The notes under the pieces: generated by a model
Told to the model about the DNA's origin: nothing
The model's input: the letters and a program-made list of their open reading frames with translations, nothing else
The model's database searches: none
Assembly: GCA_029006795.1 (NCBI GenBank)
Contig: JAQXGQ010000060.1
Location: 1-43,957 of the forward strand
Length of the DNA: 43,957 bases
Reading direction: 5' to 3'
Source: Clostridiales bacterium
GTDB taxonomy: Bacteria > Bacillota > Clostridia > Lachnospirales > Lachnospiraceae
Shown here: positions 28,505 to 42,397 of the stretch, piece by piece
Position numbering within the stretch: the stretch's first letter is position 1
How the letters are laid out: each line of letters starts with the position of its first letter
Made by a program: the position numbers and the translations under genes

Positions 28505-30805
28505 TCACTGATAACGTAACAGCCGCAGACACATAAGAAAATACTTTCTTTTTCTTTGTTCCTTAATCTGCTGCATTAAAATATGTCGTTCTTCTTTCAC
28601 AATTTCAATGTCATTTCCTGTTGTCTCTCTATCTCCATAAAGTATCTCTTCATAACAAAGCAGAAAACCATAATCACACTCTGGCAAACCGGAAGATATC
28701 TGTCTGATACGTTTTCGAAATTCCTGCATCGTCTCCGCCTCATCTCTCACCAACCCATATTGAGACAGCACCCACATATTTTTTCGAAACTCCACTAAAA
28801 ACTGCTCACTCATTTCCATGTGCCTGTAACGATATCGCCCCAAAAGATAATCTATCAGACAAATCAAAAGAATGATAACCGCTATTCCTACAATACCCAC
28901 ACGAAAAATCTGTTTCTGTCCCTCTGTTATCACAGCTTTTTTCTCTGTCACTTCGGCAATTTCCGACTTCTCTTCCTCCTCTTCCTCTGCTGCCATAAGA
29001 GGCGCATGACCTAGTACTTCTTCTGCCTGACCTTTTATCTTCCAGGGTGTATAACGAACCTCCTCATATCCCGGTGTAGGCTCAAAAGGGATCCATCCCA
29101 CTTCGTCTATATACACCTCCGGCCATGCGTGTGCCATATTAGAATATACCGTCATTTTTCTCTCTTTATTTGTCGGAACGCAAAATCCCTCCACATATCT
29201 TGCAGGGATTCCCTCTGCCCTTGCCAACAGCACAAAAGCGGTCGCAAAATAACTGCAATATCCCTGTTTACTCTCCAGCAAGAAGTATTCCAGATAGGAA
29301 TTTTCATCCTGTATCTCCTCCGGCAGCTTACCCGGTGTTCTGGTATAAGTATAAGAGGATAATTCCGCTTCAATGGCACGCAGTTTTTCCAAATCCGTCT
29401 CTGCTCCTGCCGTTATTTCCTCCAGATAATTTTCTACCCTTTCGGACAATATCGGTTTTTCTCCATAATATTCGTAAATATAAGCTCTATGTTCTTCTAA
29501 ATCCTCTATCGTCGCAAGGGATTCTCCCTTCGGCGAATAACGTTTCATCAGTGCTTTCCATGTTTCTTCCTCCGGCTCTTTCTCTGCTTCAAGCATTTCA
29601 TAAAATGCCGGATGATCGACATTTATCTGATGATAGAAGGTCTTATATTCCGTCCCGTAGCCTTTCTGCTCTCCAAATAGAAGATTTGTTCCATCATAGA
29701 CAGGTTCACAGTCTATCGTCTGCCATGTCTTTAACGGAGTAAACACATACCCTGTATCCAGATAATCATACCGTAACGTAAGCTCCGTTTGTGAAACATA
29801 GTCGGCTGTTTTTTCCCCGTCAAAGCGCTCCACAGCATACAGCGTTTCCATCGCATCTAAGAAACGGTCTTTCGTGTCTCCCACTGCCACCTGTTCCCAT
29901 CCCTGCCCGTCAAAGGTATCATAAATTTTTCCAATAAGGTAAATATTAGTGACAAGTCCTCCTTTGCCCTTTATCTCCAGCAAAGCCCGCTTATCCTCAA
30001 TAAATCCTGCTCCTAACTTTCCGTCCTCTGAAAATCCGCTGACAGCCAGACCAAAATCCTCTTTTCCGTTTCTTGTCGCATTACGGAAATGGGTAATTGC
30101 TGCCTCTTTCACATTATGATATGCTGTCTTGACAAATGCCCAGTCATAAGGTTTTTCTGACACCGGCATCACACAACAAAGCAGAAAATAAAGGATACAA
30201 AAGGGCAGCAGCCATATCATATAATGTCTGTCATCATGTTCTCTGACCTTTTTCCATTTTTCCTGTGTTGCCTCCACATAAATCATCAGTACATACCAAA
30301 GGCAGAATGCCACCCCGAGATGACTTACCGTGACTTTTCTTATGAGACAGATAATCAATGCTGCAAACACTGCCACGGCTGACAGCTTTTTTAACACAGC
30401 AAAATGCTCTGCTATCCGCCAGAACAAATAGCAGCCCAAAGCAAGCAACAGAGCCTGAATGCAGCCATACCCTGTTACCCACTCTTCCTTCCATCCGGCT
30501 TTTTCTCCTGCCCAGTCCAGATAGTTCAGACAAAATTCATTCAACAGAGTTTTATCTGCCACCAGAAAGCAAAGCAACAGACAACCCAACAGAGAAACGA
30601 TACAGAATACTTTTGCCCTGCCCCTCGCACCATCAATTCCCACCAGAATCATTCCGCAGGCAAATGCAGCTAAAACATGCCAGACAGATAACTCTGCAAT
30701 TCCTAATAATTTTCCTGCTCCAAACAGCCCAACGCAAATAAGAAGCAGCACATAAAATAGTCGATACCATACCTGATAGGGGGGATTCTTTTCACTCTTT
30801 TTCAA
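28505..30805 (-). CDS. Transglutaminase-like membrane protein (TgpA type)
   Basis: 766 residues. Six hydrophobic segments in the first 215 residues anchor it. An extracytoplasmic region ends in a transglutaminase-like fold with catalytic Cys517 (QGYCSYFATAFVLLAR), His559 (NMAHAWPEVY) and an acidic residue in WIPFEPTPGY. One more span (about 645) precedes a cytoplasmic DUF4129-type tail (MQEFRKRIRQI). The start is TTG with GGAGG at 7 nt, and it overlaps the DUF58 stop by 4 bp, so translation is coupled. It belongs to the conserved MoxR-DUF58-transglutaminase operon; the substrate is unknown, possibly cell-wall or surface proteins. Confidence 0.9.
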   Translation of the reverse strand: MKKSEKNPPYQVWYRLFYVLLLICVGLFGAGKLLGIAELSVWHVLAAFACGMILVGIDGARGRAKVFCIVSLLGCLLLCFLVADKTLLNEFCLNYLDWAGEKAGWKEEWVTGYGCIQALLLALGCYLFWRIAEHFAVLKKLSAVAVFAALIICLIRKVTVSHLGVAFCLWYVLMIYVEATQEKWKKVREHDDRHYMIWLLPFCILYFLLCCVMPVSEKPYDWAFVKTAYHNVKEAAITHFRNATRNGKEDFGLAVSGFSEDGKLGAGFIEDKRALLEIKGKGGLVTNIYLIGKIYDTFDGQGWEQVAVGDTKDRFLDAMETLYAVERFDGEKTADYVSQTELTLRYDYLDTGYVFTPLKTWQTIDCEPVYDGTNLLFGEQKGYGTEYKTFYHQINVDHPAFYEMLEAEKEPEEETWKALMKRYSPKGESLATIEDLEEHRAYIYEYYGEKPILSERVENYLEEITAGAETDLEKLRAIEAELSSYTYTRTPGKLPEEIQDENSYLEYFLLESKQGYCSYFATAFVLLARAEGIPARYVEGFCVPTNKERKMTVYSNMAHAWPEVYIDEVGWIPFEPTPGYEEVRYTPWKIKGQAEEVLGHAPLMAAEEEEEEKSEIAEVTEKKAVITEGQKQIFRVGIVGIAVIILLICLIDYLLGRYRYRHMEMSEQFLVEFRKNMWVLSQYGLVRDEAETMQEFRKRIRQISSGLPECDYGFLLCYEEILYGDRETTGNDIEIVKEERHILMQQIKEQRKRKYFLMCLRLLRYQ

Positions 30806-31968
30806 ATCAATCCCTCCAGTTCTGCCTCTATTGGCACTACAACAATGCGCCTTCTCTCACTGCTCTGACGCAACAGGCTCTCCGCATCTTTTTCCGTAAC
30901 AAAATAGAGTACCACCATGACTCCCTGTGCTGCTAATGCTTCTGTCTGTTCTAACATTTTGTCATCAATTTCATGTACCACACCAATTACAATCTTTGTA
31001 TCAGCAATAATCCCCTGTGCTGCTAATGTTTCCATTAATTCAAGAGAATTGTTGTCTTTATCGAAAAGAACCTTTGCCATCTGCTGATAAAGTGCCCCAA
31101 AATGTTCAATCCCCTGCACATGACTTTCCCTGATGTCATTCTGCTGCCAGTACATCGAATAGGGCATCTGGTGTTCTGCAAAAAACATCCCTAATGCTAA
31201 TACTACCTCTAACATCTGATTTTCCAGAGGCAGATATTTGTATGGTTCCTCACTCTCCCGTCTGGTGTCTAAGAAAATGGTAATTCCCCGTTTTTCCTCA
31301 CCGATACGGTTTCTTGTTTTCAATTTTTGTTCCCGTGCCGTTGCCTTCCAGTGAATCTGCTTTATGGCATCTCCCGGTATGTAATCCCTTACTGTCACAT
31401 CCGGCTGACTCTCGGAAAACCACGCATCTCTCTGAACTAACGAAACAACCTCGGGAATGCTGTTTACATTACCGATAGGGCGTACTCTTGGAAGTACAAT
31501 TGCCTTTATAGTACTCGGCAATTTATATTTCAACCGGAAAATCCGAAAAAAATCTGTTATTGTAACTTCCTTCACCCCTACCTCATACTCTCCCCGATAG
31601 CGACAGACAAGGTTTGTCTCAAACGTGTAACGTTCTCCCGGCAGCAATTCAAACTCCATGTCATCCGGTATCTGCTCCACATAAGACAGTTCCGGGAACA
31701 ACCGGACACTTACACTGGCAAATGCACAGTGATCCCCATTCTGCAAAACGAAAAAATAGGGCATCTCCTGTCCACACAACACCTCCCTGCATCCAACTTC
31801 CTGATAAATATGAAAACGTTCGTGCACCACAAGAAGGTACATCAGAGAAACCACCGGTATCAGCGATATTCCAAAGAAAAAGCCATAACTTACCGCCCCA
31901 CCATAGAAACTGATTGCTAACAGGGAAAGAAGCCACAACAGAAAAAGAACCATTTTGCGTCTTTTCAT
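30802..31968 (-). CDS. DUF58 domain protein
   Basis: 388 residues. Two N-terminal membrane spans (about 7-48), a beta-sandwich region, then the DUF58 core RDYIPGDAIKQIHWKATARE (about residue 195) followed by a von Willebrand-A-like fold (GITIFLDTRRESEE). DUF58 proteins partner MoxR ATPases. ATG with AAGGGGG, 10 bp after the moxR-like stop. The 3' end overlaps the transglutaminase start (TTGA). Confidence 0.9.
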   Translation of the reverse strand: MKRRKMVLFLLWLLSLLAISFYGGAVSYGFFFGISLIPVVSLMYLLVVHERFHIYQEVGCREVLCGQEMPYFFVLQNGDHCAFASVSVRLFPELSYVEQIPDDMEFELLPGERYTFETNLVCRYRGEYEVGVKEVTITDFFRIFRLKYKLPSTIKAIVLPRVRPIGNVNSIPEVVSLVQRDAWFSESQPDVTVRDYIPGDAIKQIHWKATAREQKLKTRNRIGEEKRGITIFLDTRRESEEPYKYLPLENQMLEVVLALGMFFAEHQMPYSMYWQQNDIRESHVQGIEHFGALYQQMAKVLFDKDNNSLELMETLAAQGIIADTKIVIGVVHEIDDKMLEQTEALAAQGVMVVLYFVTEKDAESLLRQSSERRRIVVVPIEAELEGLI

Positions 31969-31978
31969 GTCTTCCCCC

Positions 31979-32899
31979 TTATACCACCGGTATCTTTGTC
32001 TTTGCTATAAGACTTCTTAATATTTTTGAAGTGTCATCTTTCCGAAGCTTTGCCTCCGAGGTCAGCACAAGTCTATGAAGCAGAACCGAATCCGCAATCT
32101 CCTTTACATCATCCGGTTTTACATAATCTCTTCCTTCTATGTATGCCCGTGCCTGAGATGCCCTAAGCAGAGCGAGCATTGCTCTTGGACTTGCGCCGAG
32201 GACAAAACGTTCTTCCTCTCTGGTGGCAGTTATTAAATCCTCTATATATCCTAATACCATATCATTGATACCGATAGCACAAACCGCCTGTTTCATCTCT
32301 AGGACATCCTCTGCCCTGCACACCTTTTCAATAGTATCCGGCGTCTTTTTATCAAGAAACTGCAATGCCATCCTTATTTCCTGGTCTCTTTCGGGATAAC
32401 CAATCGAAAGGCGCATCATAAATCTGTCCATCTGCGCCTCCGGCAACGGATAAGTTCCTAAAAATTCCACCGGGTTTTGTGTAGCAATAACCATAAACGG
32501 CTGAGGCAGCAGATATTTTTCTCCATCTACTGTCACCTGTCCCTCTGCCATTGCCTCAAGCAGACTTGCCTGCGTCTTTGGCGAAGTACGGTTAATTTCG
32601 TCCGCTAACAGAATCTGGTGCATTGCCACACCGTCCCGATGTTCAAATTCACCTGATTTCATATTGTAGACAGACATTCCCACAATATCTCCCGGCAATG
32701 TATCCGGTGTAAACTGGATTCTTCCGAAGCTGCAGGACATACTTCCCGCAAGCGCACTCGCCAATGTGGTTTTTCCTACCCCCGGAACATCCTCTAGCAG
32801 TACATGACCCCCGGCTAACATACAGATAAGAACCTTTCGCACTACCTCTTCTTTTCCAACAAAAACCTTATTGATTGCATTTTCAATTTTGTGTATCAA
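31979..32899 (-). CDS. MoxR-family AAA+ ATPase
   Basis: 306-residue chaperone-type ATPase that is thought to remodel or assemble its partner proteins. Walker A is VPGVGKTTLA (residue 38), Walker B is ILLADEINRTSPKTQASLLE, sensor 1 is VIATQNPVEFLGTYPLPEAQ, and ASPRAMLALLRASQA matches sensor 2. The start is TTG, preceded by GAAGAAGG. It is the first gene of the three-gene operon. Small palindromes GACAGATAACTGTC (32926-32939) and CGATATAAAATATCG (32982-32996) lie in the 118-bp upstream region. Confidence 0.93.
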   Translation of the reverse strand: MIHKIENAINKVFVGKEEVVRKVLICMLAGGHVLLEDVPGVGKTTLASALAGSMSCSFGRIQFTPDTLPGDIVGMSVYNMKSGEFEHRDGVAMHQILLADEINRTSPKTQASLLEAMAEGQVTVDGEKYLLPQPFMVIATQNPVEFLGTYPLPEAQMDRFMMRLSIGYPERDQEIRMALQFLDKKTPDTIEKVCRAEDVLEMKQAVCAIGINDMVLGYIEDLITATREEERFVLGASPRAMLALLRASQARAYIEGRDYVKPDDVKEIADSVLLHRLVLTSEAKLRKDDTSKILRSLIAKTKIPVV

Positions 32900-33017: not shown

Positions 33018-35027
33018 CTATCTTAAGATAAACGAATCTGCCATCTGTTTTAGGCTCTGTGCACATTCATTTAATTGCTGGCTGATTGCAGTATTTTCTT
33101 CTGCACTTGCGGCATTATTCTCCGCACTTCCGGCAACCTCTCTTAATTCCTCATTAACATCTTCAATTGCCTTTTGCTGATTCTTTACAAACTCCACAAT
33201 TTCATCCATATGCTGTTTTGACTGAACAGAGTCGTTCATTCCCTCCTGAATCGTTGCGGAAGTAGCCGTAACCAATTCTTTTCCGGCAGAAACAGCCGAT
33301 TGTGATGCCGCAATGAGCTTATCTATGTTCTCACTTGCCTGTGCGCTCGATGCAGCAAGTGAACTGATTTCATCTGCAACTACTGCAAACCCTTTTCCGG
33401 CTTCTCCTGCCCGGGCAGCTTCAATCGAAGCATTTAAGGAAAGCAGATTCGTCTGGGCAGCAATGTCCTTAATTGTTCCAACAAAGCCCGCAATCTCACC
33501 ATAACATTGGTCAATGCTATCCATCGCACTTACAAGTTCCATCATCTCACGATTGCCTGCTTCTAAATGTTCCTTTGTAGTCTCTGCATTGTCACGGACA
33601 AATACTGCACGCTCCGTAATCTGCTTTGTCTGCTCCGTCAACCGTGCCATATCGTCTGATACATTAGCAACCGCTTCATTCTCCATCGAAGCACTTTGTG
33701 CTACATTTTCCGTTGTCCTTCCCAGTTTATCTGCAAAATCTAAAACACTCTCCGCTTCCCTACTAATCTGTTTAAAGGATTCGTTTAGATTATTTACAAT
33801 GCTTTCTAATGCATCTTTTATCTGCACATAGCTTCCTTTAAAATCTCCATCAATCGTAACCGTCAAGTTTTTATCCGAAATCGCTGTAACCGTATTAGAA
33901 ATACTGTCAATATAAAATCTAAGGCTCGCAATCGTTTCATTTATGGAATCTGTCAGGTTTTCAATTTCCGTAGAATTTTTCTCTTCATCAAATATTACCG
34001 ATAAATCACCCTGTGCCACCTGCGTCATTTTGCTACTGATAGACTCTAACGGTCGGAATAAAACACTGATTTTTCCATAAACATCTTTTCTTGTAATTGA
34101 AGTTGTCACAAAGTAAATTGTCATGTTCAAAACAATAATCAGGGCAAAGAAAAGCATAAGTGCATACAATGGCTTCACAGAAATTACTTTCCATCCTGTT
34201 ACCTCGGAAGTGTTCCCTATTCCAAATTTTAAACCGCCTTTATAATCCAAAAAGAGCCTTGTAGTCATATTGGCTTTCACAAGGGACTGATACCTTCCGG
34301 AATTTACCTCCTGCACAGTAGGCGTGTTATCCACATTCAGCGAATATTTCTCATTCGGGTGTACAAGGATTGTTCCATCTGCAGTAGTCCAAAAAACATA
34401 ACTGTTTGCCGTATAGCTTTCCTCAATAAGCGACACCAGATTATCCATATACATATCCATGCCGACCACGCCTGTCATTTTCCCATCGCGGTAAGTTGCC
34501 TTAGACAAGGTGATACAGATGCCACCTGTCTGTAAATCCACATATGGATCTGAAATATATACTTTCTCCGGGTCCGCCTGTGCCCCCTTGTACCATTCAC
34601 GTTCCGTTACAATAAAATCCTCCGGTGGCTGCCACCCACCGCTCATAATGGTAATATTTTCGTCATAGCAGCTGTAAACCGCCGAAATCTGGTCATCCAT
34701 CGCCACCATGGAATCCACATAACTTAAAACAGCCTCATTATCATTAAGAGTTCCGCTGCTGATGCCGGATGCGATTGCCTCTAGCATACTCACCTTACTC
34801 TGCATAGCGCGGTCAATTTCCTCCGTATATTCACTCACCGAACTGCGGTTGTCTTTCAAAGTATACATAATTGCAAAAACTCCGCCAATCAGTATCGATT
34901 CCAAACATACAATTATCATTGCTCGGCGCAGTATCTTACCGAATGTATTCCCTATCCTGCTGCTTAACCCCTTTTGGGTTTCCTTCTTGGTCTCCTCTTT
35001 ATCCATCTTATTTTGTATCTTACTCAT
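33018..35027 (-). CDS. Methyl-accepting chemotaxis protein, dCache sensor
   Basis: 669-residue transmembrane chemoreceptor, last gene of the signalling operon. One span is at about 33-55 and another at about 285-310. The extracytoplasmic dCache_1 domain has [20 protein letters not shown] and [17 protein letters not shown], which follow the R-x-W-Y...Y-x-D pattern I know from amine- and amino-acid-binding dCache domains. HAMP follows, then the signalling hairpin ([20 protein letters not shown]). The start is ATG 35027 with GGAGG; a GTG at 35048 overlaps the previous stop. Immediately upstream is a solute-binding lipoprotein that may present ligand to this receptor. Confidence 0.92.
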
Positions 35028-35047
35028 AGATATTTTCCTCCAAAACA

Positions 35048-35866
35048 CTAATCTAACAAAGCACTCTCAATTCCATATTGCGCTGCTAAAGAACTTACCG
35101 TCCCCTCTTCATAAGCGTTCTTTAGGAATTCATTTGCTTTCTCCGTCAAATCGGAGTCCTTGCGAAAGCCTATGCAGATTTTTTCGTCATTTAGGGAAAT
35201 GTCAAATCCCAAATCGTCAAACTCATGCCCATCATCCGTGTTATATGCTGCCATAATGATATCTATAACAGCCGCATCTGCTTCTTTTGCCTGGACACTT
35301 TGCAGCGCTTCCATCTGGGTAGGATAAGCCGTATAACGATATTTCAGCTCTTTCAAAAGAGTCTCGCCTGTGGAGCCAGATTCCACTGCAAACAACAGAT
35401 GCTGACACGCTTCAACCGTATTATACTGTTCCAACTCGCCGTCTCGCAGTACAGCCACCTGAGCATTTGATAAATACGGATTGGAACAGGAAATTGTTTC
35501 TTGCAGCTCCTCTGTCATTGTCATTCCGTTCCAGATGCAGTCGATGTTTCCCTGTTCAAGAAGTTCTGTTTTCTTATCCCAGTCAATCTCTTTTAATTCC
35601 AATGCCACACCAATGCTTTCTGCAAAATCTTTCGCCAAGTCGGCATCAAAGCCTGTCCAATCCTCTTCGGAACGATAATCCATCGGTGCAAAATCTGTAA
35701 TACCGACCACAAGGGTTCCTTTGGATTGTACATATTCCAAATCCGACTGTCCCTGTTCTATCCCAGAGCCCATACCGGTATTGTTCTGTGCACATCCCGT
35801 TAGCATCGTTAGTGTCATTGTCGCCGCTGCAAGAAGCATACTTATTTTCTTATATGACCTTTTCAT
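35048..35866 (-). CDS. Solute-binding lipoprotein (SBP family 3), no permease nearby
   Basis: 272 residues from the ATG at 35866, with a GTGGGG site 9 nt upstream. A lipoprotein signal ends in the lipobox LTGC (about residue 25). The rest is a type II periplasmic binding protein of the polar amino-acid group ([59 protein letters not shown]). The dedicated permease and ATPase that usually flank such genes are absent; instead it lies between a hybrid kinase and a chemoreceptor. A signalling role (ligand presentation) is more likely than transport. The ligand is probably an amino acid or related compound. Confidence 0.88.
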
Positions 35867-35890
35867 TTGATTACCCCACATTCTATTGAT

Positions 35891-38560
35891 TTAACTATTC
35901 CGCATAAATATCAGACCAAAGGCGCCCGGTCCACAGTTCGTTGCAATTGCCGATGATGCCTTCTGATAAATAACACGCTCAAAAACCACCTTTTTCTTTA
36001 CCTGTTTTTCAATTTCCCTCAACTCTTCATCTGTCAGTCCTGAATAAGTAATAAATAAGATTTTTTTGTCTATTTCATGTTGGTGGCGTAATGTGGATGC
36101 GATATACTTTTTCCACACATATCCCCTCTTTCCTACCCGAACTGCCCCTACTTTCATACTGCTGTTTTTTAGAACAATCACCGGATGAATCATGAACGCC
36201 TGACATAATGTGTTTACTTTTGATGAAATTCTTCCAGAACGTGCCAGATATTCTGTGCTAGTTACAACAAAGCTAGTTTTCACCTGTTTTTTTCTTTGTT
36301 CCATTTCCTTTATAATGGCATCTGCAGGCATTCCATTTGCAGCATACTCGGCTGCGCACAAAACGGTAAGTCCCATCCCACTCGACATTTGTCCAGAATC
36401 AATCACACTTACATTATCAAATGTTTTCGACGCCTCTAAGGCATTTTCATAAGCCTTACTGGTATTTTTAGCAATCACGATATGAATAATATATTGCGCT
36501 TTTGTCAGCTGTTCTGCAAAATACTCCTCATAATCTTCCACCGCAGGTGGTTGTGAATGTGCATGATTCTGCTTCTCTTCCAGGTAAGAAAGTATTCCGT
36601 CTGTCTCTGTCTCCACACCATCCATAAACTCACCATCTTCTGTCACTACCCGGTACGGAATTACTGCAATCTGATGCTTCTCCACAAGATTTTTGGGCAA
36701 ATCACTGGTGCTATCTGTAGAAATCATAACTGGTATCTTTTTTCTATGAGTAAAAACAGCTTTTTCAACCATATCGGCAGAATCTGCTGCGCTTGTCAGA
36801 TTTACAAGCTGCTTTGGAAGATGTCTCAAAAGTTCTGTCTCTAGTTGTATACCGCTGACCGGCTTCAAAAGATACCCGTCAAATCCTTCTCTCCGATAGA
36901 GTGCCTGATTCTCTCCACCTGCATTTGCCGTAAGAATTACAACCGGAGTTTCCTGATTCAATCCCCCCGGCTGCTTACGGATGGCATGCAGACATTCAAT
37001 ACCATCCATGACCGGCATAAGATGATCCATAAAAATAACATCATATCGATTCTGAAGTGTTTTTTTCAAGCATTCCTTACCGCTACTAACGGTATCAACA
37101 TTCACCTTCGTATCCCGCAGAAGTTTCTCGGCAACCATCAGGTTCGTCTCATTGTCGTCAACAATCAGGACATACGCCTTTGGTGCTTCAAAGCTCTGTT
37201 TATAATGCTCTCTTGTATTCAATTGATGGCGCGCTTCAAGGTTAAGCTCACCAATCTCTGCTTCACTGATAATCTCCTGCTGTAAAGTAACCACGAAAGT
37301 TGACCCTTTCGTGTAGACACTGTTCACCGCAATTTCACCGCCCATAAGATCCACCAATTGTTTTACGATGGAAAGTCCTAATCCGGTTCCTTCAATATAG
37401 CGGTTCTTCTCCTCATCGATTCTCTTAAAAGCACTGAATAAATATGGAATATTTTCTTTTTTGATTCCCATACCTGTGTCCGTTACAGAGTAGGTTACTT
37501 GTGCATGGCCTTTTTCAAACCTCTTGCACTGAATCGATAACGTAATGGAGCCTTCCTGCGTATATTTTACTGCATTGTTCAGCAGATTAATCAAAATCTG
37601 CTTAATCCGCACCTCATCTCCAAATAATTGAGAGGGTAGCGCCTGATCCACATCAACATGAAATTCCAACCCTTTTTCCTTAGCCCTTATCCAAATCATA
37701 TTGACAATGTCAGACAACATAGCCCCGGCATCATAGGCAACCGGTACAATATCCATCTTTCCGGATTCTATCTTTGACATGTCTAAAATATCATTGATGA
37801 GGGTGAGAAGCATCTTGCTTGCCCCCTGAATGTTTTTGGCATCTACTGCCACCTCATCTGATACATCTTCCCTCAGAATCATCTCATTCAGACCGATAAT
37901 GGTATTGATGGGTGTTCTGATTTCATGGCTCATACTGGAAAAGAAGCGGCTTTGCATCTGATTCATCTCTTCGATTTCTTTTTTCTGTTTCTGCGCAAGT
38001 TCATTCTCTGAACGATAGATTGCATTCTGGAACAGAATCATACCGCAAGTCATTATTGTCACAATACTTAAGGTGGCAAAAGAGTCAACATAGGCCACTT
38101 GAATCGTATGTGAAATTGTTAGTTCCGGATAAAAATATGCAATATAATAGCAGACTGCACACAGGAAAAAACTACTTATTATCAATACATATTTTATTTT
38201 TTTCTCTACCACAAGGCAGACAAAAACCACTCCAAACATAAACCAGATTGGCGCACCACCATAAATTGCTCCACCTGTCAGAAAATTATACGGCAATACA
38301 AAGAAAATAATAAGTGATGCTATAAGGACAGCTCCTAACTGTATTTTGTGGTAACGAATGGTAAAATATGTAATCCCAGAAACAACTACAAGAGCAAGTG
38401 TCATTGCAATTAAATTAACTGTATTCTCTCCTGCCACAACTCCGGATACAATCCCTGCAGCCAAACCAATTAGTGCAAACATAACAAGCAGCCTGTACAT
38501 TCGCTCCTGACGACTCCGATTGCAATCGCCAATAGCCTGAAGCAGTTTCTTTAGATTCAT
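35891..38560 (-). CDS. Membrane hybrid histidine kinase-receiver-DegV fusion
   Basis: 889 residues. Six or seven spans lie at residues 20-180. A HisKA domain has His212 (SMSHEIRTPIN), followed by HATPase (NLLNNAVKYT, DTGMGI, GTGLGLSI), then a receiver (460-580) with Asp512 (IFMDHLMPVMDG). After a short linker, residues 610-885 form a complete DegV domain: STDSTSDLP, HSQPPAVEDYEEYF, STEYLARSGRISS and TNCGPGAFGLIF. DegV (FakB) proteins bind a fatty acid in a deep pocket. Here the usual TSQP is HSQP, and the His before GPG is Asn, so the binding or kinase-partner role may differ. The ATG (TGATG) is coupled to the previous stop. Confidence 0.93.
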   Translation of the reverse strand: MNLKKLLQAIGDCNRSRQERMYRLLVMFALIGLAAGIVSGVVAGENTVNLIAMTLALVVVSGITYFTIRYHKIQLGAVLIASLIIFFVLPYNFLTGGAIYGGAPIWFMFGVVFVCLVVEKKIKYVLIISSFFLCAVCYYIAYFYPELTISHTIQVAYVDSFATLSIVTIMTCGMILFQNAIYRSENELAQKQKKEIEEMNQMQSRFFSSMSHEIRTPINTIIGLNEMILREDVSDEVAVDAKNIQGASKMLLTLINDILDMSKIESGKMDIVPVAYDAGAMLSDIVNMIWIRAKEKGLEFHVDVDQALPSQLFGDEVRIKQILINLLNNAVKYTQEGSITLSIQCKRFEKGHAQVTYSVTDTGMGIKKENIPYLFSAFKRIDEEKNRYIEGTGLGLSIVKQLVDLMGGEIAVNSVYTKGSTFVVTLQQEIISEAEIGELNLEARHQLNTREHYKQSFEAPKAYVLIVDDNETNLMVAEKLLRDTKVNVDTVSSGKECLKKTLQNRYDVIFMDHLMPVMDGIECLHAIRKQPGGLNQETPVVILTANAGGENQALYRREGFDGYLLKPVSGIQLETELLRHLPKQLVNLTSAADSADMVEKAVFTHRKKIPVMISTDSTSDLPKNLVEKHQIAVIPYRVVTEDGEFMDGVETETDGILSYLEEKQNHAHSQPPAVEDYEEYFAEQLTKAQYIIHIVIAKNTSKAYENALEASKTFDNVSVIDSGQMSSGMGLTVLCAAEYAANGMPADAIIKEMEQRKKQVKTSFVVTSTEYLARSGRISSKVNTLCQAFMIHPVIVLKNSSMKVGAVRVGKRGYVWKKYIASTLRHQHEIDKKILFITYSGLTDEELREIEKQVKKKVVFERVIYQKASSAIATNCGPGAFGLIFMRNS

Positions 38561-41352
38561 CACGCCACACCACCTTTCATGTTGCCAATCAGGTTCTCCA
38601 CCTTCTCAGAAGCTGCACCAAGTTCAAAATCTTCTATATCCTGTCGCACCTCATAAAGGAGTTTCTCAATAGACATCCCCTGATAGATAGCCCCGCTCAT
38701 TTCTGAAATCAGGGTTTCTGCCTTATCTGCCTCAAATGTATTCAGACTCTCTTTTAACTTTTCTAACCATTGTATCAGCTCATCCCCTGATACTTCCACA
38801 CTCTCTTCCTTTAGAGCCTGCTTAGAAGCATTTTCATCCGCAGTAACCACGTCCAAGATACATTGCACCACCTCATCATACGCAGTAAGAAGTTCCTTAT
38901 GATGCTCTCTGATATAGTCTGCATCCTGATTTTTTGCCGCTTCCTCTGCCTCTCTTGCCATTTCTGAGAGTGCATCCGCACCCACCATTTTTGCAGAACT
39001 CTTCAGTGCATGAACCAGAATACGGTAATTCTCAAAATCCTCTGTTTGAAAGAAATCATCGATTTCTGCCGCTTTTCGCTCAGCATCCTTCGCAAATTTT
39101 GTCACCAGTTCCACATAAAACTCTCTGTCCCCGCGACAGTATTGCATTCCTGAACGTGTATGAATTCCGGCACTTTCAAGCCGTTCTATTTCATTTTCCT
39201 CCGAAGAACTTTCCGTGCCTTTCCCATCTGTCACTCCATCTTTGGAAACGGATTGTTTCTCCTTGTCCACAGTCTTTAAATTTTTTTTATCTTTTTCATC
39301 CACAAACAAAATGGATGATTTCGGAAGCATTTTTCTTAAGATACGCTCCATCTCTAAAGTTTCAATCGGCTTAGAAACAAACTCATCAAATCCTTCTTTC
39401 AGGAACATTTCCCTTGCGCCGCTGACAGCATTCGCCGTAAACGCAATAATTGTAAATACTTTATTCTGATCTGATTGAACTTTGCGCAGCAATTTTAATG
39501 TTTCCACTCCGTCCATTTCCGGCATCATGTGATCAAGAAAAATCAAATCAAATTCTTCCTCTTTGCAAAGTTCAATCGCTCGCCTGCCGCTATCTGCCGT
39601 TTTCACTACCATCTGATAGTCCCCTAAAATTCCCTGTGCAACCATCAGATTCATAGGTTCGTCATCCACAACAAGTACCCTGACACCCGGACAGAGCATA
39701 TATTTTTCCTCAAATACATCCTCATCTCCCGAGGTACTAGCATTCAATAGATTAATAATCGGTAAACAGAAAAAGGGCTTTCTAAGAAGTTTTACCTTGC
39801 TTTCCCGCGACAGGGCAAAACTGTTATCTGCCACCACAATAACTTCCATAGTCTGAGCTAACTCTTCTAGACGGGATTTATTCTCCTCATATTCTTCTTT
39901 TCCAATGAACAGATGTGTCAGCTGGTACATCGAAATCAGCCTCTCAAATTCGTCCATATTAGAAACCCCATGTAACGGAATATCAAACCTCTGAACCAGG
40001 TGGGAAATCATCTCATTATAATAGTCTCTTACCTCCGGGACCTCATATTTTTCCGACATCAAGAAACTTGCCAGACACAAATTTTTCCGATCATTTACCG
40101 CCATACCGGGAGTTTCGTCTGATACCTTCTGTGGAATGCTGGCAGATATAGTTGTACCGATTCCTGCAGTGCTTTCTATCTGAATAAATCCTTTCATTGC
40201 ATTAACCATTCCATATACGATTGGAAGCCCTAACCCCAGACCTCCGGCTCTTCGGTTTCTTCCCCCATTGGACTGATAAAACTGCTCTGTAATTCTTCCC
40301 AGTTCTTCTGTGGCAATTCCGACTCCGGTATCACTTACCCTGATACACAGATTGATGCCATAAGGCTTGGTCAAAGCAAAAACTCTGACATAAACTCCCC
40401 CTTTATGTGTGAACTTAAGTGCATTATCAATCAGATGTTTTAATATCTTCTTGATTTTCCTCCCATCCCCAAGAAGGACAGAAGGCATTCCGGCATCAAT
40501 ATCGAAAACAAGTTCCGGCATATTCTCTCTCTCTGACAGCCGGTTCTCAACGATAATATCATTCACAATGGATGAAATCATGTAGGTATCTTCGCTGACT
40601 TTAACCTTTCCGGTATCTATCTCCGTATAATCAAGGATATCCTCAATCTGGTTGAACAATCTGTATCCAGCCATCTGTATAGAAAAGATATTCTTCCTTT
40701 TGTCGGCATCCTCTTCGTTTTTAAGCATAACTGCCGTGATGCCCGTAACCGCATTGATGGGTGTTCGAAGTTCATGGGAGACGTTTGTCAAAAAATCTTC
40801 TGCCCTGCGGTTTGTCTCTTCCAATTCAGCAATTCTGTTCTCTGTGTTTATTCTCTCTTTCCTGTGCCCCTGCATCACAGCCTTTATTAAATTTCCAGCC
40901 ATATAGACAAGTGTCAGGTGAAGAAGAATTCTCGTAATCGAAAGTGGTGTAAGCTCTACAGCGCCGCCAAGCACAAACACAAAATCATAGCACATTGTAA
41001 GGAAATATGTGGCTACACAAAGTCTGATGATGCTATAAACCTCTGTAACCGAATATAAGATAATGATTACAATCATCACAGGCGCCAGGTCATAGATGCT
41101 TGTCTCATGGATTCCATAAAAGAAAAATGCCAGCATCGTCAAGACAAAATACAACCAAAGGCTAGTTGAATCAGGGAGTTTCCCTGTAATATAAATCACC
41201 CAGCTTGCTACTAGACCTAAGATGAGTAATACAACAGCCCCCGTTTCCCATCCGAGAAGAAAGGACTCCCCTGTCAATATGATTGTAGCAATTGTATAGA
41301 CGAGCAATATCATAAGATGTGTTGCCCGCTGCTTCTCCTGTTCGTCCTTCAT
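38560..41352 (-). CDS. Membrane hybrid histidine kinase with degenerate receiver, receiver and HPt
   Basis: 930 residues. Six spans in the first 160. HisKA has His193 (NVSHELRTPIN), then HATPase (HLIDNALKFT, DTGVGI, GLGLGLPI). Residues 420-535 look like a degenerate receiver without the phospho-Asp. A true receiver (555-675) has D607 (IFLDHMMPEMDG) and the lysine in VSKPI. The HPt domain has His781 (HALKSSAKMVGA). The last about 100 residues are a helical bundle, LIQWLEKLKESLN... to GGVA. The protein can carry out a complete phosphorelay. ATG with GGTGGG site; 7 bp after the REC-HD-GYP gene. It is coupled to the DegV-fusion kinase. Confidence 0.93.
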   Translation of the reverse strand: MKDEQEKQRATHLMILLVYTIATIILTGESFLLGWETGAVVLLILGLVASWVIYITGKLPDSTSLWLYFVLTMLAFFFYGIHETSIYDLAPVMIVIIILYSVTEVYSIIRLCVATYFLTMCYDFVFVLGGAVELTPLSITRILLHLTLVYMAGNLIKAVMQGHRKERINTENRIAELEETNRRAEDFLTNVSHELRTPINAVTGITAVMLKNEEDADKRKNIFSIQMAGYRLFNQIEDILDYTEIDTGKVKVSEDTYMISSIVNDIIVENRLSERENMPELVFDIDAGMPSVLLGDGRKIKKILKHLIDNALKFTHKGGVYVRVFALTKPYGINLCIRVSDTGVGIATEELGRITEQFYQSNGGRNRRAGGLGLGLPIVYGMVNAMKGFIQIESTAGIGTTISASIPQKVSDETPGMAVNDRKNLCLASFLMSEKYEVPEVRDYYNEMISHLVQRFDIPLHGVSNMDEFERLISMYQLTHLFIGKEEYEENKSRLEELAQTMEVIVVADNSFALSRESKVKLLRKPFFCLPIINLLNASTSGDEDVFEEKYMLCPGVRVLVVDDEPMNLMVAQGILGDYQMVVKTADSGRRAIELCKEEEFDLIFLDHMMPEMDGVETLKLLRKVQSDQNKVFTIIAFTANAVSGAREMFLKEGFDEFVSKPIETLEMERILRKMLPKSSILFVDEKDKKNLKTVDKEKQSVSKDGVTDGKGTESSSEENEIERLESAGIHTRSGMQYCRGDREFYVELVTKFAKDAERKAAEIDDFFQTEDFENYRILVHALKSSAKMVGADALSEMAREAEEAAKNQDADYIREHHKELLTAYDEVVQCILDVVTADENASKQALKEESVEVSGDELIQWLEKLKESLNTFEADKAETLISEMSGAIYQGMSIEKLLYEVRQDIEDFELGAASEKVENLIGNMKGGVA

Positions 41353-41359
41353 ATCCCAC

Positions 41360-42397
41360 CTACTTTTCTCTCATCTGATAATCCGTATCTTCATCAATGA
41401 TGTTCAACATAATTTCTACCAATTCAGGATCAAACTGTGTTCCTTTTCCTTTTTCCACTTCGGTACGAACCTGTGACTGCGGAAGCACATCACGATAACT
41501 TCTTCTGGAACTCATTGCATCATAAGCATCTGCAACTGCAATAATCCTCGCTTCTTTCGGAATTTCTTCAGCAGAAATACCATCGGGATATCCCTTGCCG
41601 TCATAGCGCTCATGGTGCCATCTGGCACCGGTAATCAGCTTTGGAAACTCTGTAATATTTTTCAGAATTTTTGCTCCTATCACCGGATGATTTTGTATGA
41701 TCGCATACTCCTCATCCGTCAATTTCGCCGGCTTGTTTATAATCGCATCAGGGACGCCTATTTTTCCAACATCATGGAGAAGCCCCATCATATAAATATC
41801 ATTCTGCATTTCTTCGGAAAAACCTGCCCGCCTGGCAATCTCTTTAGAATAATCCGCCACCCTGGTAGAATGACCATTAGTATAGGTATCCTTTGCATCA
41901 ATGGCACCGGACAGAGCCTTTACAATCTGCATGGATATCCTCTCCATCTTCTCATGCTGTGCCGTCACTTCCTGTGTCTTTTTTTCCACTTCACAGGATA
42001 AGTCCGTCTGAAGACGTATCAAATCAATTGTATGTCTTACACGAAGTAAAAGCACCTCCGGTACAAACGGTTTCTTAAGGAAATCCATTGCTCCGGCTTC
42101 AAGTCCTCTTGTCTCTGTATCACTGTCATCATCTGCTGTCAGAAAAATAACCGGAATGTCCGATGTTTCCTTATTTCCCCGGATAGCGGCAATCGTTTCA
42201 AACCCATCCATCCCCGGCATGTGAATATCAAGTAGTATAAGATCCGGTCTGTTCTCTTTCAAAAATTCAATTGCATCCTCTCCCGATTTCAGACAACTCA
42301 CCCGCATTTTTTCACTGCATAATATCCGGCTTGCCATTTTAAGATTTGATGTATCATCGTCAACCACTAAAATCCAGTCACTCTGATGTTCTTTCAT
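41360..42397 (-). CDS. Response regulator with HD-GYP output
   Basis: 345 residues. Receiver domain (1-125) with Asp pair VVDDD, phospho-Asp in LILLDIHMPGMDG and lysine in FLKKPF. A coiled linker (SCEVEKKTQEVTAQHEKMER) leads to an HD-GYP domain with LLHDVGKIGVPD and HHERYDGKGYPDG intact. Output should be c-di-GMP hydrolysis under phosphorylation control. First gene of the five-gene operon, with AAGGAG at 9 nt and the promoter at 42474-42503 upstream. The HPt-bearing kinase directly downstream is the likely phosphodonor. Confidence 0.95.
   Translation of the reverse strand: MKEHQSDWILVVDDDTSNLKMASRILCSEKMRVSCLKSGEDAIEFLKENRPDLILLDIHMPGMDGFETIAAIRGNKETSDIPVIFLTADDDSDTETRGLEAGAMDFLKKPFVPEVLLLRVRHTIDLIRLQTDLSCEVEKKTQEVTAQHEKMERISMQIVKALSGAIDAKDTYTNGHSTRVADYSKEIARRAGFSEEMQNDIYMMGLLHDVGKIGVPDAIINKPAKLTDEEYAIIQNHPVIGAKILKNITEFPKLITGARWHHERYDGKGYPDGISAEEIPKEARIIAVADAYDAMSSRRSYRDVLPQSQVRTEVEKGKGTQFDPELVEIMLNIIDEDTDYQMREK

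Follow-up and report, generated by a model that had tools for sequence, protein, structure and literature searches.

A DegV domain fused to a hybrid histidine kinase in gut Lachnospiraceae: a candidate FakA-independent sensor in a paired-kinase phosphorelay

What does a DegV domain, known from the fatty-acid-binding FakB proteins, do at the end of a membrane histidine kinase (HK)? The question is raised by a gene of the 43,957-nucleotide contig JAQXGQ010000060.1 (hereafter the window) of a Clostridiales bacterium of the family Lachnospiraceae, in which an HK and a receiver (REC) run on into a DegV domain. An earlier note on this DNA had seen in it a possible lipid-sensing phosphorelay kinase. 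We found that the protein is of phosphorelay type and bears a genuine DegV fold, for which fatty-acid sensing is a suggestion from sequence. Such a DegV-bearing membrane sensor kinase occurs in many Lachnospiraceae of the gut and in some Treponema-type bacteria, usually adjoining the same partner kinase gene. Our favoured explanation, held tentatively, is that DegV could be a FakA-independent sensing domain for an acyl lipid or similar ligand, modulating a phosphorelay of two kinases with one histidine phosphotransfer domain (HPt). The parts of the gene are as follows.

35891..38563, minus strand: HK-REC-DegV fusion gene, GTG start, 890 amino acids (889 from the in-frame ATG at 38560)
37994..38512, minus strand: membrane part, residues 18-190, six long helices in the AlphaFold model, presumed membrane-spanning
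37760..37954, minus strand: HisKA (Pfam), residues 204-268, phospho-acceptor His213
37277..37621, minus strand: HATPase_c (Pfam), residues 315-429, with N- and G-box residues in the alignment
36836..37171, minus strand: receiver (Pfam Response_reg), residues 465-576, phospho-acceptor Asp513
36740..36793, minus strand: flexible linker, residues 591-608, pLDDT below 50 in the full-length AlphaFold model
35903..36727, minus strand: DegV domain, residues 613-887, Pfam score 163.2 bits (cut-off 27)

The fusion gene is a single open frame without a break, as the earlier note had read it. Residues are numbered here from the GTG and were counted from the ATG in that note, so that its His212 and Asp512 are our His213 and Asp513. 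Both were indeed intact, and they are kept in 43/43 rows of alignment A2 (43 of the 47 fusion genes from one collection) and in 62/62 rows of alignment A5. The latter holds the window and 61 of the 70 scan rows of alignment A4, itself made of the window and those fusion rows of the genome scan described below in which DegV starts at residue 590 or later (70 of 80; L164 excluded). The receiver residues D469, D470, D513 and K567 are invariant in the fusion alignments. With HisKA, HATPase_c, a receiver and intact catalytic residues, the protein is a hybrid histidine kinase, sharing domain order (HisKA-HATPase-REC) and catalytic residues with those of the BarA, TorS, ArcB, EvgS and RcsC/RcsD type. 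It nevertheless scores below the cut-off of every histidine-kinase NCBIfam model among the 25 matches listed, and no Pfam family matched residues 18-190, the last of whose six helices continues into HisKA in the AlphaFold model. DegV membership is clear from scores above the curated cut-offs (PF02645, TIGR00762) and from a complete DegV fold, which bears out the complete domain claimed earlier. Since the NCBIfam model TIGR00762 recognises this domain, databases probably list such proteins under a DegV-type name.

Misassembly or a frameshift as the origin of the joint has a negligible probability. A scan of genome contigs found 538 relatives, and in 78 of the best 80 loci DegV lies in frame with an HK and/or a receiver; the other two have the DegV piece alone. 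Outside these loci we found 46 further fusion genes, including one from the genome to which the window belongs. The whole set comprised 80 genes from the 78 loci, 47 genes of a second collection and L094, that is 128; six of these duplicated another gene throughout the last 500 residues and were removed. The domain-architecture search proposed in the earlier note thus gave 122 non-identical fusion genes, which still include near relatives, so that counts among them are not independent. As the joint recurs in these genes, we ruled out the frameshift or misassembly that the earlier note had named as a refutation. By title, the best-80 locus records are mostly metagenome-assembled genomes of Lachnospiraceae and other Clostridia, and the isolates Schaedlerella arabinosiphila DSM 106076 and Anaerotruncus colihominis JM4-15 carry the fusion as well. 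In L041 and L164, the end of the fusion frame holds undetermined residues and a run of prolines, which probably reflects a gap in the assembly.

The window's own genome encodes a second fusion (C172:10611-13268, 44% identical to the first) and four free DegV genes besides the two fusions. A match reaching the DegV end was found in at least 34 of 200 genomes of the family, its own included, a lower bound counted among the matches listed with four candidates scored per genome. A DegV-family search in a smaller sample found DegV within a frame of at least 850 residues in 8/31 genomes (13 genes among the matches listed). At the level of the class, nine of 391 genomes had a match with an E-value of at most 1e-82, of which six belong to the window's family and three, with frames of 908-917 residues, to another family (f179). 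In the phylum sample (398 genomes), all frames longer than 700 residues among the matches listed belonged to the window's family.

Then, we asked how the fused DegV evolved. After thinning, 84 of the 122 fusions were left for a quick tree with 56 free DegV, and also for the residue counts given below. In this tree, the fused DegV lie on one side of a branch (SH-aLRT 100, length 0.89), and the free DegV nearest to them are about 290 residues long. For close pairs, in several of which synonymous sites are near saturation, the median ratio of nonsynonymous to synonymous substitution rates (dN/dS) was 0.087 in DegV (26 pairs, maximum 0.187), to be set beside 0.034 in the HK (25 pairs), 0.056 in the receiver (26 pairs) and 0.126 in the membrane part (24 pairs). 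The DegV value indicates that the fused domain is under purifying selection and is no passenger. One relative, L227 (5376-8393, 1006 residues), has a different, longer N-terminal region ahead of the same HK-REC-DegV core, where dCache_1 matches below threshold (20.6 bits, with 45 required), and for this reason we consider that DegV travels with the HK-REC core and not with the sensor end.

The surroundings of the fusion gene point to a second kinase as its partner. The neighbouring genes in the window are the following.

41360..42397, minus strand: REC-HD-GYP response regulator (RpfG-like, Pfam), 345 amino acids, upstream of the partner
38560..41352, minus strand: partner hybrid kinase HK-REC-HPt (Pfam), 930 amino acids, directly upstream of the fusion
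38869..39111, minus strand: HPt domain of the partner (Pfam PF01627), residues 748-828
35048..35881, minus strand: family-3 solute-binding protein (Pfam), 277 amino acids, directly downstream of the fusion
33018..35048, minus strand: PDC-HAMP-MCP signalling protein (Pfam), 676 amino acids, downstream

Counted from the GTG, the partner and fusion genes overlap by 4 bases, and with an HPt encoded beside the kinase the window holds the genes of a putative multistep phosphorelay. Among the 122 fusions, 108 have a same-strand upstream open reading frame of more than 300 residues within 150 bases, with a kinase motif in 103 of these 108; nine of the 14 fusions without such a neighbour are near a contig end. 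By profile, the HPt is on the partner only in 97 pairs, on the fusion only in 7, on both in none and on neither in 4, hence exactly one HPt in 104/108. The pairs lacking it (L123, L129, the broken L156, and L169) had numbered 12, with a kinase partner, when a text pattern was used; the count of 4/108 comes from a profile HMM for which the HPts of this set were themselves the input. In the seven HPt-bearing fusions, of 1117-1152 residues, DegV stands immediately ahead of the HPt, and their partners (676-695 residues) have none; Pfam confirmed the HPt in both of the two tested. In L227 and L228 the HPt is on the partner. This rule of one HPt per pair is, as far as sequence can tell, the strongest sign that the two kinases act together. 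The window's partner has the same HK-REC-HPt order as HPt-relay hybrid kinases; what differs from BarA-type relays is that there are two hybrid kinases, one HPt between them on either protein, and a DegV at the C-terminus.

The same pairing could also be explained by DegV being a ligand-free docking or dimerisation scaffold, its EDD fold kept and its lipid site decayed, which pairs the kinase with the HK-REC-HPt partner or positions the HPt near the receivers. The kinase motif in nearly all adjacent upstream neighbours and the place of DegV immediately before the HPt in seven fusions argue for this scaffold, which we nonetheless hold to be somewhat unlikely from the site residues described below. 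A further alternative is that DegV is an output, receiver phosphorylation governing capture, storage or release of fatty acids by a phospho-regulated lipid carrier. The receiver-then-DegV order is that of a classical response regulator and its output, and the free DegV FakB4 is reported to alter lipid amounts without channelling exogenous fatty acid into membrane phospholipids (PMC10138225). Against an output, the HPt follows DegV in those seven fusions, so phosphate probably moves on, and a tether to one membrane protein would fit a sensor better than a bulk carrier. With the loss of Arg205 reported in the next paragraph, we judge it improbable.

The site of the fused DegV was compared with that of FakB1 in the 84 fusions, the 19 nearest free DegV and 37 other free DegV. 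FakB1 holds the fatty-acid carboxylate by a network of Thr62, Ser95, Ser171 and His270 (PMC8892158), requires Arg173 in catalysis with FakA (PMC8892158, PMC9136124) and docks to FakA and the membrane through Arg205 (PMC9136124). Three of the places concerned are:

36554..36556, minus strand: Ser670, place of Thr62 (alignments with free DegV)
36134..36136, minus strand: Val810, place of Arg205 (alignment)
35936..35938, minus strand: Asn876, place of His270 (alignment)

First, the hydroxyl of Thr62 is kept. The earlier note had read the TSQP motif as HSQP, a register off by one. His669, which stood opposite Thr62 in a HMMER alignment, was dropped because the alignments with free DegV put Ser670 there. 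In a profile alignment with the free relative L084, no gap falls near the site and Ser670 faces Thr. This place has S in 66 and T in 8 of the fusions, and T in 52/56 free DegV. Second, two network residues are changed in the window's DegV, which does not have the full carboxylate network of FakB. The Ser95 place has Ala698 (A 49, S 21, T 9 and G 5 in the fusions), a change that appears partly older than the fusion, with G in 12/19 nearest free DegV too. The His before GPG is Asn, as noted earlier: Asn876, with N in 78/84 fusions against H in 54/56 free DegV. At the Ser171 place, Ser776 is compatible with the network, and Gly777 is kept in 74/84 fusions. Third, the docking Arg205 is replaced by I, F, M, V or L in at least 65/84 fusions, with R in 55/56 free DegV.

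These replacements of FakA-type residues make chemistry with FakA unlikely. A tethered FakB, still passing fatty acid in cis to FakA for phosphorylation, would agree with the Dak2 (FakA) protein in the window's own genome (572-residue frame) and with Arg778 at the place of the catalytic Arg173. It is very improbable given the Asn at the His270 place, the hydrophobic residue at the Arg205 place, an Arg173 kept in only 57/84 fusions and, as shown below, four fusion genomes with no Dak2 match. For the scaffold, the changes at Ala698, Asn876 and Val810 count in its favour; against decay, Ser/Thr670 (74/84), Gly777 and the new, near-fixed Asn876 point to a polar site that, judged by its residues, is remodelled and kept in the fused DegV. 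The nearest free relatives, L082-L101 (many with KTAA and SHCGP motifs), score about 200-270 bits against the fused-DegV profile, and a supported branch of the tree groups them with the fusions. These are mostly stand-alone proteins of about 290 residues with H, R and R at the His270, Arg173 and Arg205 places in 19/19. The window's DegV differs from the FakB/DegV fatty-acid-binding proteins (4x9x, 5uto, 2dt8, 1pzx) in its fusion to a kinase, in Asn for His270, Ala for Ser95 and Val for Arg205, and in fusions occurring without Dak2 in four genomes.

These four genomes are Treponema-type. Two fusion loci are in records titled Treponema (L136 and L172), and L172 is on a 343-kb contig whose G+C is similar in cassette and flanks (0.46-0.50). 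Around the genome of L172, 15 of 39 genomes, itself included, have any DegV, and in three of these (G966, G986, G989) the HK-REC-DegV fusion is the sole DegV. The same holds for G967, the genome of L136, and the fusions of all four have the S670...N876-C-G signature. Over 40 genomes, a Dak2 match was found in 0/4 with the fusion, 10/12 with another DegV and 0/24 without DegV. As these genomes are related and their completeness is not stated, this comparison supports FakA independence without proving it. A smaller control (G1004, G998, G978) was trivial, DegV and Dak2 being in one chain in two of three, hence the use of 40 genomes, where six of the ten Dak2-positive relatives have both in one frame (by Pfam for five of the six). 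The Treponema-type loci L219, L220, L221, L224, L225 and L226 encode Dak2, a FakA-like middle domain and DegV as one chain of 594-1108 residues, which would be FakA and FakB as a single polypeptide; a literature search turned up no description of a Dak2-DegV fusion.

Together, these data lead us to prefer, tentatively, the sensing domain. Its ligand would most likely be an acyl lipid, such as a fatty acid, drawn from the neighbouring membrane without FakA, in line with the earlier suggestion of binding without acyl-phosphate chemistry, which the replaced His270 and Arg205 equivalents and the four Dak2-free genomes support. His213 would autophosphorylate and pass phosphate to Asp513; the pair's single HPt would collect phosphate and hand it to the response regulator, changing cyclic di-GMP (c-di-GMP) turnover. 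Ligand binding to the tethered DegV would shift the kinase/phosphatase balance or the REC-to-HPt step. The gene before the partner (n=108) encodes REC+HD-GYP in 48, REC alone in 16, REC+GGDEF in 4, REC+GGDEF+HD-GYP in 4 and HD-GYP alone in 2, so that in about two thirds of the cassettes a receiver protein is encoded upstream, in many of them joined to HD-GYP, GGDEF or both.

Several observations weigh against this explanation. Ligand binding by the window's DegV is a prediction, and with Ala698 and Asn876 in place of two network residues a carboxylate may not bind. The equivalent of the catalytic Arg173, retained in the window's DegV as in all 56 free DegV, is kept in only 57/84 fusions. The full-length model has a pTM of 0.44 and does not define how DegV would touch the kinase. 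Two DegV-bearing relatives with no HK fusion, G979 and G1003, also have no Dak2 match, which weakens the point on FakA independence. All seven HPt-bearing fusions fall together on one side of a single branch (support 76), so we do not claim independent moves of the HPt; they perhaps stem from a single event. Finally, the gene before the partner has no REC, GGDEF or HD-GYP in 24/108 pairs (several are MCP-like or unrelated), and 10/108 have none in range.

A wider proposal, which we consider a possibility rather than an expectation, is that lipid sensors of a new class, cytoplasmic and placed at the membrane, are represented by the fused DegV: FakB-type binding freed from acyl-phosphate synthesis, reading free acyl lipids and controlling c-di-GMP through a two-kinase, one-HPt relay also present in Treponema-type bacteria. 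DegV proteins are widespread, many without an assigned role, and a DegV joined to a phosphorelay, conserved, selected and found without FakA offers a direct route to testing DegV as a sensor. Should a lipid be read, fatty acids of the membrane or the diet would be linked to c-di-GMP in common gut bacteria, and the shared, movable HPt makes the kinase pair a testable unit.

The EDD-fold regulators DhaQ and DhaR-DhaK sense dihydroxyacetone and act on transcription factors; to our knowledge, neither is fused to a histidine kinase. Searches by title and abstract start, with most subscription papers outside their coverage and hence no proof of absence, found no description of a DegV-histidine kinase; one paper that came up treats DegV as a neighbour of hemolysin III genes. 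A DegV-less HK-REC protein, L211 (6642-8435, 598 residues), is 48% identical over 4-596, with the same membrane part, HK and REC, and ends before DegV; no HK-REC-HPt partner is labelled within the 15 kb read around it. L211 is directly followed by a 467-residue gene with a sub-threshold HTH match only.

Other features of the cassette are more variable. The earlier note mentioned neither the overlapping HK-REC-HPt partner nor the REC-HD-GYP regulator, and it missed the second fusion of this genome and the occurrence of the HPt on either protein of the pair. At each of L123 and L129, two HK-REC-DegV genes stand in tandem behind a single HK-REC-HPt gene. In a subgroup (L037, L069, L071, L072, L074-L077, L079 and the own-genome second copy), an MCP-like gene of 422-458 residues, examined with Pfam in L037, replaces the receiver gene before the partner. 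A family-3 solute-binding protein gene lies 3' of 31/122 fusions, and membership of the PDC-HAMP-MCP gene in the cassette is uncertain. Downstream of the signalling genes, the window (28505-32899) holds an ordinary-looking set of MoxR ATPase, DUF58 and transglutaminase genes.
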